NCBI GenBank assembly: GCA_026391835.1
Contig: JAPLDF010000076.1
Location: 1-64,000, forward strand
Direction: 5' to 3'
Origin: Bacteroidota bacterium
GTDB lineage: Bacteria; Bacteroidota; Bacteroidia; Bacteroidales; FEN-979
DNA length: 64,000 nt
In this document: one piece after another, positions 45,729 to 50,734 of the stretch
Numbering within the stretch: position 1 is the first letter of the stretch
How the letters are laid out: each line of letters starts with the position of its first letter
Program-made: the position numbers and the translations under genes
The notes under the pieces: generated by a model
The model's input: only the letters and a program-made list of their open reading frames with translations
Told to the model about the DNA's origin: nothing
Databases searched by the model: none

Positions 45729-46937
45729 ATGAGAAAAATTTCAACCTGCATCCTGTTAACCTTGTTCCTTACCTCTTTTTCAGCTGGTTTTGCGCAAGAT
45801 AAAGAGAAAAAAGCCGATTCCGGGTATGTCTTCACTGTGTTAAAACAATTGCCGGCTACTGCAATTAAAAACCAATATCGTTCGGGCACCTGCTGGAGCT
45901 ATTCTGCGATTTCTTTCCTTGAATCCGAACTTCTGCGAACAGGCAAAGACACGTTTGATTTGTCCGAAATGTTTTGCGTCCGCAACGCTTATTCCGATAA
46001 AGCCTCATTGTATATCAGGTTCAACGGGAAACACAACTTCGGGGGTGGCGGGGCAGCACATGATGTGACCAGCGTGCTCCGGAAATACGGAATGATGCCG
46101 GATGCGGCATACACCGGCATGACCATCGGCGAGCCGAACCCGGTGCATGGCGAAATGGATGCAGTGCTTGAAGCTGATGTTGAAGCCGTTCTCAAGAATT
46201 CAAATAAAAAACTCACCCCGGTCTGGCACCAGGGTTTCGACGGGCTGCTTGATGCGTACCTTGGCAAGGTTCCGGAGAAATTCACCTACAAAGGCAAGGA
46301 TTATACGGCCAAATCGTTTTCCGATATGATGGGGCTCAACCCCGACGATTATGTTGAATTGAGCTCTTACACCCATCATCCATTTTATGCGCCGTTTATC
46401 CTGGAAGTTCCGGATAACTGGGAAATGGGTCAGGTATACAATATTCCTGTTGATGAGCTGATCCAGGTGATTGACAACTCGATCAACCAGGGTTACACGG
46501 TTGTTTGGGGAGCCGATGTCAGTGAAAAAGGATTCGCATGGAAAAGCGGCGTTGCCGTTGTTCCCGATAAGAATGCCACTGAAATAGCAGGTATGGAGAG
46601 CGGTAAATGGTCCAAGATGTCGGATGCCGACAAGGATAAATTGCTCTACAAATTTGACAAGCCAAATCCGGAAAAGAAGGTCACACAGGAGATGCGCCAG
46701 GTTGAATTTGACAATTACCAGACAACCGACGATCACGGCATGCACCTCACCGGGATCGCCAAAGACCAGAACGGTACCAGATACTACCTGATCAAGAACT
46801 CCTGGGGCCTTGACGGAAGTCCCTACAAGGGCTACTTCTATGCATCAGAATCGTATATGAGATTGAAAACCATGGATATCATGGTTCATAAAAATGCCAT
46901 CCCGAAAGAAATAAGGAAGAAACTTGGCATAAATTAA
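45729..46937 (+). CDS. C1-family cysteine peptidase (aminopeptidase C/bleomycin hydrolase-like), secreted
   Basis: Signal peptide; 'NQYRSGTCWSYSAISFLESELLR', 'DDHGMHLTGIAKDQNGTRYYLIKNSWG'. Confidence 0.93.
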   Translation: MRKISTCILLTLFLTSFSAGFAQDKEKKADSGYVFTVLKQLPATAIKNQYRSGTCWSYSAISFLESELLRTGKDTFDLSEMFCVRNAYSDKASLYIRFNGKHNFGGGGAAHDVTSVLRKYGMMPDAAYTGMTIGEPNPVHGEMDAVLEADVEAVLKNSNKKLTPVWHQGFDGLLDAYLGKVPEKFTYKGKDYTAKSFSDMMGLNPDDYVELSSYTHHPFYAPFILEVPDNWEMGQVYNIPVDELIQVIDNSINQGYTVVWGADVSEKGFAWKSGVAVVPDKNATEIAGMESGKWSKMSDADKDKLLYKFDKPNPEKKVTQEMRQVEFDNYQTTDDHGMHLTGIAKDQNGTRYYLIKNSWGLDGSPYKGYFYASESYMRLKTMDIMVHKNAIPKEIRKKLGIN

Positions 46938-46976
46938 TCACCTTGATTAATAATCCCCGCCTGCGTAAGCATGCAG

Positions 46977-47009
46977 AAGGCTCCGGAATTGACCGGGGCC
47001 TTTTTTTTA
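46977..47009 (+). terminator. Rho-independent-like terminator after the C1 peptidase
   Basis: AAGGCTCCGG aattga CCGGGGCCTT followed by T-tract. Confidence 0.7.
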
Positions 47010-47261
47010 TTACCTCCCCTTCCGTCATTGAATTATCTTCCATTCCCCGTCCTGAAGGTAATAGTTATCCCAACCGGTAAACACCACAACACAAACTGCC
47101 AGGCATCACTCCCCATCGAAATCTTCATGTGGTTTTATCTGCAACATCCAGGTGTCATGCTACATGGCATTTGGCAATACAGATACATAACAATCACTTG
47201 TTTTACAGTTCATGGCAGCTTTGGAATTGGTATGTAATAATGAAAAAATATTTTAAATGAC

Positions 47262-47290
47262 TTGACAAAGCTATTATCATATAGTATATT
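47262..47290 (+). promoter_or_regulatory. Classical sigma70-like promoter TTGACA-N17-TATATT in AT-rich leader
   Basis: TTGACA aagctattatcatatag TATATT; about 210 bp upstream of ATG 47499. Confidence 0.5.
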
Positions 47291-47481
47291 AGCGCAAAAA
47301 ATAGATATATACCCTCATTGTACTGCCTTGCTTTTTTTAAAGTCCGGTAAATACATGTATTTGTTTGAATATGATAAATAAGTACAACATCTTATATCAC
47401 TACAAATATAGATCAAATATATTCTAACATACTAACAACAAAGAAGTTGATGTTATATTATTATCAATGCAATTATAAACT

Positions 47482-47492
47482 AAAAAAGGAGG
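47482..47492 (+). promoter_or_regulatory. Strong Shine-Dalgarno AAAAAAGGAGG, 6 nt before ATG
   Basis: aaaaaaggaggaaacctATG. Confidence 0.75.
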
Positions 47493-47498
47493 AAACCT

Positions 47499-49592
47499 AT
47501 GAATCCATTAAATCCTGCAAGTGCTCAGCATGCAGATGATCCGTTAAACCTTTGGGAGATGTCGGTCGAAGAGATGGCCGGTTTTGGAGAATCGGCAGAT
47601 GGTATGAACAGCCCGGCCCATGAAGGTGAGGGTGAAAACTTAACGGCAGCCGGTGGCACCTTGAACCCGGAGCCAAAACCTGTGAAAACACCAATTGTAT
47701 TGGCATTAAAAAAGAACCCGGTCAGCGGCCGCTACCGCGGGACTTTTAGCATGTTCCAGCTCGAACTGCGTGTAGATGTTGACCGTACACGGCCGATGAA
47801 CCGCCTGAGTGCCGATTTCTTCCAGGTAAGCGGGGCAACGACCACCTATTATGGTTCATTTGTCGTGAACCTGCCAGCAATTACAGTAAGCAATACACAG
47901 GTTGTCGTAAGGGGAGCCGGGAACTTTACCTTCGCCAATACCTACTCGGTGGTCCAGGTCACTATTCCGCGGCGAACCATCTTACAATCAATGGCACCCG
48001 CCACCGTGCAGTTTTTTACAACAGGCGGTGCTGCAGGTGCAACCTACATATGTTCCTTTGAATCCATCTATTTCAGAACCGTGCGGGTTGAAACCGACCG
48101 TGTTTTAAATGTGGCTACCCCCGTGTTTAACAGCTACAATACAGGCGCTCTTCCTTCCGGCGGACCGGCCCGGAACCTGAGTGTTATCAGTTCCTATGCC
48201 GAAGCAGGCATCGAAATGATCTCCACCCCGGGCAGTGATATCGTCAATATTGGTGAAGCTGGTCCAAACGTCTCATGGAGCAATGCTGAATTGCATGCTT
48301 CCATGCAGCGTCACTTTTCATTGTGGGCTGACACGCAGCAATGGTCGGTCTGGCAGCTTGTGGCCCAACTGCATGATCAGGGTCCCGGGCTGTACGGCAT
48401 CATGTTCGACCAGCAGGGCAAACAACGACAGGGCTGTGCCGTTTTCCATGCCAGCATAGGGGGGGCGGCAGCAGCGCAGCAGCGTCTCCAGCTATATACC
48501 TATGTGCATGAACTTGGCCACTGTTTCAACCTAATGCATTCATGGCAGAAGCAATACGCTTCTCCGCCGGGTGTAAACAAGCCGAATGCAATGTCGTGGA
48601 TGAACTACCCATGGAATTATCCAGCCGGCGGGGCAGTTGCATTCTGGAACTCATTCCCGTTCCAGTTCGACAACGAGGAGATCATCCACCTTCGCCACGC
48701 CTATCGCAACAACATCATCATGGGCGGAAACGACTTTATGATCAATGCAGCCCTGGGCAGAAATGTAATGGCAGACTCGGTAAAAGAAGATTCCGGGGTG
48801 TGCCTGAACATATCCACTCATCAGAAGAGTTTCGCACTGGGCGAGCCTGTTGTACTGCAGATTGAACTGTGCACGACCGATTCAAGGGGGAAACGTGTTC
48901 ATACCTGGTTACACCCGAATTTCGGGATGGTGAAGGTTGTTATTCGCAAACCAAACGGTGAAGTCGTGGCATATGAGCCATTGATAGATCACCTGGTGGG
49001 AGCCAGTGAAACCACCCTTGGCAGGGACGATGTCATAAAGGACAGCGCTTACATCGGCTACGGGAAAGACGGCTTCTATTTTGACCAGCCCGGCTATTAC
49101 CTGGTTCGTGCAACCTATGCGGCACTGGATGGTTCAGAAGTGATGTCTGACGTCATCAGGATCCGGGTCCGCTACCCGGTATCTGTAACCGAGGAGTCAC
49201 TGGCCGATCTATTCATGGGTGAGGACCAGGGTACATTGCTTTACCTCCTTGGTTCCGACAATGAATCGCTCAAACACGGCAACGATGCCTTTGATGAGGT
49301 TCTGGAGAGATATGAGAAACATCCGATGGCAAACTATGCCCGTTTGATCAAAGGAATAAACGCCAGCCGTAATTTTAAGACAATTACGGATGAGGCAGCA
49401 AACCGGATGATCATAAGAAAGGCACAATTGACCGAAAGCACCAGTTTGTTGACATCTGTGGCTACTTCCGGGATCCTCGATCCTGTTTCAGCTCAAATGA
49501 CATTGTCGAGCCTGGCGGATGTTCAAACCAGGGACGGCAACAAGGCAGGCGCAAAAAAAACACTCAGCACGCTTTCAGGGTTGAAGGGTTGA
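47499..49592 (+). CDS. Leaderless metzincin-like metalloprotease homolog with Ig-like and helical C-terminal regions
   Basis: 'YTYVHELGHCFNLMHSWQK' (HExxHxxNxxH) with downstream Met-turn-like 'PNAMSWMNYPW'; no N-terminal hydrophobic signal; no T9SS CTD. Confidence 0.8.
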   Translation: MNPLNPASAQHADDPLNLWEMSVEEMAGFGESADGMNSPAHEGEGENLTAAGGTLNPEPKPVKTPIVLALKKNPVSGRYRGTFSMFQLELRVDVDRTRPMNRLSADFFQVSGATTTYYGSFVVNLPAITVSNTQVVVRGAGNFTFANTYSVVQVTIPRRTILQSMAPATVQFFTTGGAAGATYICSFESIYFRTVRVETDRVLNVATPVFNSYNTGALPSGGPARNLSVISSYAEAGIEMISTPGSDIVNIGEAGPNVSWSNAELHASMQRHFSLWADTQQWSVWQLVAQLHDQGPGLYGIMFDQQGKQRQGCAVFHASIGGAAAAQQRLQLYTYVHELGHCFNLMHSWQKQYASPPGVNKPNAMSWMNYPWNYPAGGAVAFWNSFPFQFDNEEIIHLRHAYRNNIIMGGNDFMINAALGRNVMADSVKEDSGVCLNISTHQKSFALGEPVVLQIELCTTDSRGKRVHTWLHPNFGMVKVVIRKPNGEVVAYEPLIDHLVGASETTLGRDDVIKDSAYIGYGKDGFYFDQPGYYLVRATYAALDGSEVMSDVIRIRVRYPVSVTEESLADLFMGEDQGTLLYLLGSDNESLKHGNDAFDEVLERYEKHPMANYARLIKGINASRNFKTITDEAANRMIIRKAQLTESTSLLTSVATSGILDPVSAQMTLSSLADVQTRDGNKAGAKKTLSTLSGLKG

Positions 49593-49619
49593 AAATGACG
49601 GCCTGATGCATTGAAAATC

Positions 49620-49655
49620 GCCGGCAATGACTAACTTTGTCAGTCATCAGCCGGC
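49620..49655. other. Hairpin 1 between the two islet genes
   Basis: GCCGGC A ATGACT [aactttgtc] AGTCAT CA GCCGGC. Confidence 0.7.
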
Positions 49656-49672
49656 CTTCACACCTAGTTCAC

Positions 49673-49707
49673 GGGGCCGACCTGCACCTTAGGTTGCAGC
49701 CGGCCCC
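49673..49707. other. Hairpin 2 between the two islet genes
   Basis: GGGGCCG AC CTGCA [ccttaggt] TGCAG C CGGCCCC. Confidence 0.7.
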
Positions 49708-49730
49708 GGTGCTGGTAGAATCTCAAACTT

Positions 49731-49738
49731 AAAGGAGG
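49731..49738 (+). promoter_or_regulatory. Strong Shine-Dalgarno AAAGGAGG, 6 nt before ATG
   Basis: aaaggaggaatatcATG. Confidence 0.75.
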
Positions 49739-49744
49739 AATATC

Positions 49745-50038
49745 ATGCAGTTATATGTCAAACTTCGGGATGGTTTTAAAAATGACACGGTCTCCATCAC
49801 CGTGGATGGAAATGAGATTTATCATAAAACCGGCGTCACCACCGACCTGACGATATCATTTGCAGATGGTGCGGATGTTCCTGTTGATAACCCGGTTGTT
49901 ATGCTTGAGGTCTTGGTAAAGGGTGGCCTGCGAAACGCAAAAGAGATCCGGGTAAAAGAGACTCCCTATGTGGGTGTATGGATCATGGATGGTAAGATGG
50001 AACTCAGGGCGACACAGGAGGAAGTCCCCATGATGTAA
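49745..50038 (+). CDS. Conserved-looking 97-aa protein of unknown function
   Basis: 'MQLYVKLRDGFKNDTVSITVDGNEIYHKTGVTTDLTISFADG...' predicted beta-rich; own strong SD. Confidence 0.75.
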   Translation: MQLYVKLRDGFKNDTVSITVDGNEIYHKTGVTTDLTISFADGADVPVDNPVVMLEVLVKGGLRNAKEIRVKETPYVGVWIMDGKMELRATQEEVPMM

Positions 50039-50056
50039 GCATCTGCGGGAGGCCGT

Positions 50057-50734
50057 CTATCGCCAGGAACCGCTGGCAGTGGGTATCAGCAATGCTTTTT
50101 TTAATAATTCAAGATAATCAGGCCTTGGGATCAGGGTTGCGCCAAATCGCATCAGGTGGGATGTCTCAACCTGGCAGTCGATAAACATAACCCCATGCTG
50201 CCGGCATCGTTCAACAAGCGCATTGAAGGCAACCTTGGAGGCGTTGTTCATGGTGAAGAACATGCTTTCGCCAAAAAACGCATCGCCCAGTGCCAGGCCA
50301 TAAAGACCACCTACAAGTTCTTCCCGGTAAAACACCTCCACTGAATGTGCATATCCCTGGTAGTGCAGGTTTTTGTAAGCTTCAATGAAATCATCGGAGA
50401 TCCAGGTGCCGTCCTGCCCGGGCCTCGGCGTGGCTGCACAACTTTCAATGACCTGGTCAAAAGCTGTGTCATACCTGACTGTGAACCTGTTGCTCCTGAT
50501 CACCCGATTAAGCGAATCCGTGAGGTTGAACTGATCGGGAAACATCACCATCCGCGGATCGGGAGAGAACCAGAAAAAATCGTCTTCGTCCCTGAACCAG
50601 GGAAAGATGCCATGGGTATAAGCTTCCAGCAACCGTTCTACCGACAAATCGCCGCCAATGGCGACCAGCCCGTCCGGCTCGGCTTCATCAACCGGCGGAA
50701 AATACGGCTCTTCAGGTAATAAATATACTGTCAT
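50057..50734 (-). CDS. aat: Leucyl/phenylalanyl-tRNA--protein transferase
   Basis: 'GLVAIGGDLSVERLLEAYTHGIFPWFRDEDDFFWFSPDPRMVMFPD', 'GGLYGLALGDAFFGESMF'. Confidence 0.96.
   Translation of the reverse strand: MTVYLLPEEPYFPPVDEAEPDGLVAIGGDLSVERLLEAYTHGIFPWFRDEDDFFWFSPDPRMVMFPDQFNLTDSLNRVIRSNRFTVRYDTAFDQVIESCAATPRPGQDGTWISDDFIEAYKNLHYQGYAHSVEVFYREELVGGLYGLALGDAFFGESMFFTMNNASKVAFNALVERCRQHGVMFIDCQVETSHLMRFGATLIPRPDYLELLKKALLIPTASGSWR

Follow-up and report, generated by a model that had tools for sequence, protein, structure and literature searches.

Strong Shine–Dalgarno (SD) sequences are unusual in the Bacteroidota, a phylum that rarely uses them, and the closest described case is the autoregulation of the strong-SD gene rpsU in Flavobacterium by ribosomes lacking bS21 (PMC9976891). 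Such ribosomes reportedly favour mRNAs with a pairing energy below -13 kcal/mol, and strong SDs mark rpsU or rpsR (PMC9976891). Other described systems to be considered are the metzincin peptidases of clan MA(M) and the small horizontally transferred cassettes that lack a mobilisation gene. Here, we describe a two-gene islet in the draft genome (5.35 Mb, 86 contigs) of a member of the Bacteroidales. It lies in a window of 64,000 nucleotides, i.e. the whole stretch of DNA that was analysed. The islet is very probably a module that was transferred between phyla and inserted at this site, and whose donor SDs were kept and tolerated.

The islet starts with a putative promoter motif, TTGACA-N17-TATATT (47262..47290, plus strand), and with the AT-rich leader of the protease gene (47291..47498, plus strand, about 25% GC). 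The SD AAAGGAGG, contained in AAAAAAGGAGG, is found at 47485..47492 (plus strand), 6 nt ahead of the protease ATG (47499), and AAAGGAGG occurs again at 49731..49738 (plus strand), 6 nt ahead of the ATG of the partner gene (49745). The three elements TTGACA-N17-TATATT, AAAAAAGGAGG-6-ATG and AAAGGAGG-6-ATG are present exactly where a preliminary description of this DNA had located them. Its AT-rich leader is equally real, with 24.8% GC over 250 nt, which is the level of the lowest 0.01% among 34,110 overlapping windows sampled from the genome. That the motif is a classical sigma70 promoter can be accepted in part only. It scores 11/12 and is the best sigma-70-like match of the region, and TTGACA-N16-18-TATAWT has 14 genomic occurrences (4 for the control), but it comes near the Bacteroidota type as well, whose consensus is TTTG-N19-21-TAnnTTTG. 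Read as CTTG-N20-TATATTAG each box is one mismatch off this consensus and, therefore, the promoter is not clearly foreign. Since the exact consensus is barely enriched genome-wide (152 vs 130), promoter typing is weak in general; rpsU of this genome carries the exact form.

General use of SDs in this genome is almost nil. In a scan of 545 gene starts (from a 0.86-Mb genome sample, with start codons picked mechanically) the mean anti-SD energy was -0.98 kcal/mol versus -0.83 kcal/mol in shuffled upstream regions, and AGGAGG at proper spacing was found for 6 of 470 long ORFs versus 5 for the reversed motif. The 16S gene is absent from the assembly and the anti-SD was taken from a congener, whose 16S retains CCUCC. 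Both islet SDs form an 8-bp pairing of -11.6 kcal/mol, a value reached by about 1.1% of gene starts and by none of the 545 shuffled regions. Throughout the 5.35-Mb genome AAAGGAGG-N4-8-ATG has 41 matches, compared with 16 for the reversed control. About twelve of the first 30 matches are situated ahead of plausible gene starts. The two SDs had been supposed to be outliers; they are outliers in being rare, but they are not unique. Among the few other strong-SD genes is a ribosome hibernation factor-like gene (G000:C34:42196, L019) about 1 kb from rpsU.

The first gene (47499..49592, plus strand) codes for a putative metzincin-like zinc metallopeptidase of 697 amino acids with the zinc motif HELGHCFNLMH and the Met-turn MSWMNY. 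In 21 sequences the motif HExGH.FNL.H with its three histidines and one glutamate is invariant, the glycine usual for metzincins (HExxHxxGxxH) being replaced by asparagine in all of them, and the Met-turn SWMNY is likewise invariant at 366-370 in the 21 relatives. In the structural model the catalytic part is flanked by beta domains on its N- and C-terminal sides, and the C-terminus is helical. Profiles of the M12 reprolysin-like Pfam families PF13688 and PF13583 match weakly (E 0.012-0.043, below the gathering score), a search of NCBIfam gave no match, and the top Foldseek matches, OgpA/Amuc_1438 among them, are mixed and of low TM-score. The protein is presumably active as a protease. Inspection of the protease by eye revealed no signal peptide. 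A role as anti-phage defence system was considered and rejected, as PADLOC was negative and only a weak match to Cas13-ApeA (E 0.014, 58 residues) was obtained. Homologues of the protease on plasmids are distant only, and two of them, on a Rhizobium plasmid (L132) and on a B. thuringiensis plasmid (L133), are located near LodA-like, PF12902 ferritin-like and Dyp-type peroxidase genes.

The second gene (49745..50038, plus strand) codes for a protein of 97 amino acids that is confidently predicted as an eight-strand beta-sandwich (pLDDT 93). A solved homologue was not found by sequence, the predicted fold resembles general beta-sandwiches only, and there was no match on plasmids. Its gene adjoins the protease gene in relatives too, and the protein probably acts together with the protease. 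In three relatives (L033:5962-6078, L034:8096-8236 and L046:8137-8253) the partner has an in-frame upstream extension that is signal-peptide-like (..LLMGSAC). The partner in the window has no extension of the LLMGSAC type, and the second strong SD directly precedes its core ATG. A signal peptide in the window was discarded, as the open frame ends only 4 codons upstream and the arm of the hairpin does not lie in frame. In Geobacter (L043:8191-8709) and Pyrinomonadaceae (L044:8373-8885) a common protein of ~170 amino acids replaces the 97-aa partner.

Both genes are separated by a gap with two strong hairpins (z -3.0 and z -3.4). Hairpin 1 (GCCGGC...GCCGGC, 49620..49655, plus strand) is seen in the window only. 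Hairpin 2 (49672..49708, plus strand) is conserved across phyla; it aligns with stems in L033 (6003-6041), L034, L046 and L041, which represent four phyla besides that of the window, and 5 of its 14 pairs show compensatory changes among these five sequences. At this position other relatives carry stems that differ from it, some of them very strong, and the stem of L033 is followed by a T-run in a terminator-like manner. No known RNA family was detected in the islet with Rfam. We infer that the stem sets the ratio of protease to partner, either by limiting read-through or by protecting the protease message.

The islet is located between a C1 peptidase gene (45729-46937, plus strand) and aat (50057-50734, minus strand), which gives 46938..50056 as outer limits of the inserted segment, its ends being only approximate. 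This gap comprises 3.1 kb in the window. In 16 of 17 congeners having the aat locus the two genes are convergent direct neighbours with a gap of 6-316 bp, and the site is a clean empty site in these congeners. None of the 42 further genomes of the family, which include 18 congeners, has the protease gene, and among 392 sampled genomes of the class no full-length homologue besides the window copy was found but only short and weak metzincin matches. Neither a repeat nor an att-like site was detected at the ends of the insert, and there is no integrase within it. The stretch from the C1 peptidase terminator to the islet leader holds, on the minus strand (47020-47140), what looks like the decayed end of a gene (..VFTGWDNYYLQDGEWKIIQ*) containing stops. 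The codon usage of the protease gene is ordinary for this genome (46th percentile), as is the GC content of the coding part, and its branch in the protease tree is fairly long (0.32-0.36). This means that the transfer is not a very recent one and that no donor can be named.

Protease and partner occur, usually in the same order and with up to 68% identity, in Pseudomonadota, Cyanobacteriota, Chloroflexota, Acidobacteriota and Verrucomicrobiota. The pair is found together in Methylococcaceae, Microcoleus, Undibacterium, Massilia, Anaerolineae, Chloracidobacterium, Verrucomicrobia and a Bacteroidales MAG (L048), some of these relatives being MAG contigs with possibly mis-binned labels and several Massilia genomes being isolates. 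Beyond the pair itself neighbour genes are not generally common to the relatives; a valS gene lies head-to-head with the protease gene in Massilia (L037:2956-5790) and in the Bacteroidales MAG (L048:3156-5828). This family of protease and partner is widespread, has been transferred across phyla and is without a Pfam or NCBIfam model. In the phylogenetic reconstruction the window protease belongs to a fully supported (100/100) clade of 11 rows from five phyla, comprising Pseudomonadota, Chloroflexota, Cyanobacteriota, Verrucomicrobiota and the one Bacteroidales MAG, and this clade is separate from two Chitinophagaceae-type groups. Constraining all Bacteroidota to one clade is rejected (p-AU 4e-135). 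As neither a grouping of the window copy with L048 (p-AU 0.315) nor one with L033 (0.295) is rejected, the tree singles out no donor; with L048 as a possible sister of the window copy, the module may have come directly from another member of the Bacteroidales.

The SD energy ahead of the protease gene ranges from -6.4 to -12.5 kcal/mol in L048 and in the bacterial relatives outside the Bacteroidota, from +1.7 to +2.2 in L049, L050, L052 and L056 (Chitinophagaceae or unnamed Bacteroidetes), and is also weak (-1.0) in the archaeal-labelled contig L055. Start codons were picked by eye from the in-frame candidates, so that an SD is more readily found where there are several. The simplest reading is that the module brought the SDs along and that they disappeared where the gene has been resident in Bacteroidota for a long time.

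Horizontal acquisition of the pair is well supported. A metzincin-like zinc protease and its small beta-sandwich partner, moving between phyla, were inserted into the convergent C1 peptidase–aat gap after the genus had diversified. Both SDs and the intercistronic stem-loop would have entered with the module and the leader probably too, the SDs representing translation signals of SD-using donor lineages retained after transfer. In the new host transcription probably starts from the hybrid promoter, and translation probably follows the Bacteroidota mode for the most part, relying on A-rich start regions and not on the tolerated SDs. A recent acquisition from outside the Bacteroidota had already been proposed in the preliminary description. 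Acquisition as such is borne out by the absence from the family, the flanking genes that adjoin in the congeners, the multi-phylum protease clade in conflict with the species tree and the SD contrast. Its recency is not, as the compositional check revealed no atypical codon usage.

The same description had offered a module read by SD-accessible ribosomes as the other possibility, and this found no support. It would mean that the strong SDs are functional and that the module is preferentially read by ribosomes with exposed anti-SD (e.g., those lacking bS21), which would link protease output to the state of the ribosome. That two consecutive genes both have the 8-bp pairing and that the congener 16S has kept its CCUCC speak for it, and so does the protease SD, which at -11.6 kcal/mol compared with -8.8, -7.9 and -6.4 in the nearest relatives has not decayed despite adapted codons. 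On the other hand, calculated with the 13-nt congener 16S tail in ViennaRNA the islet pairings amount to -12.2 and -12.0 kcal/mol and so miss the range below -13 kcal/mol (PMC9976891), although the energy model of that paper may differ. Moreover, rpsU reaches -8.8 here without a GGAGG core, no SD is evident for rpsR, and SDs of donor lineages account for those of the islet without any regulation. We consider such a function of the SDs unlikely, and it is similarly doubtful that they were kept because they are used, i.e. that this is a protease operon with SD-dependent translation responding to the fraction of ribosomes with free anti-SD.

An old, vertically inherited gene that every sampled congener and family member has lost, and that is kept here with unusual signals, would agree with the ordinary codon usage and with the existence of a second Bacteroidales copy (L048). 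Nevertheless, it is highly improbable because many losses in genus and family would be needed, each restoring tight convergent neighbours, and because the tree rejects one Bacteroidota clade. An artefact of assembly or binning, by which a foreign piece was joined to this genome, is conceivable for a draft of this kind, but here both flanks lie on one contig in native synteny with the congeners and both GC content and codon usage match the genome, so that there is very little chance of it.

Transfer of the module with its donor SDs offers a natural experiment on translation signals that cross a phylum border. Two Bacteroidales copies of the orthologous gene have SDs, as do those of the donor phyla, and four copies of the Chitinophagaceae type lack them; the fate of SDs in Bacteroidota is thus directly testable. 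With small horizontally transferred cassettes the islet shares the patchy cross-phylum spread and the empty site in relatives, and it differs in having neither an integrase in the insert nor detected flanking repeats. Like the metzincins (PF13688/PF13583; ADAMTS and OgpA/Amuc_1438 in the PDB) its protease has an HExxHxxxxxH zinc site followed by a Met-turn, but it falls into no family at curated cut-off and has asparagine for glycine, other flanking domains and a conserved partner gene. With the rpsU system of Flavobacterium it has in common a strong SD within a phylum where SDs are seldom used; in contrast to it, the pairing stays under the reported threshold, the genes are unrelated to the ribosome and the signal is common to relatives from SD-using phyla.
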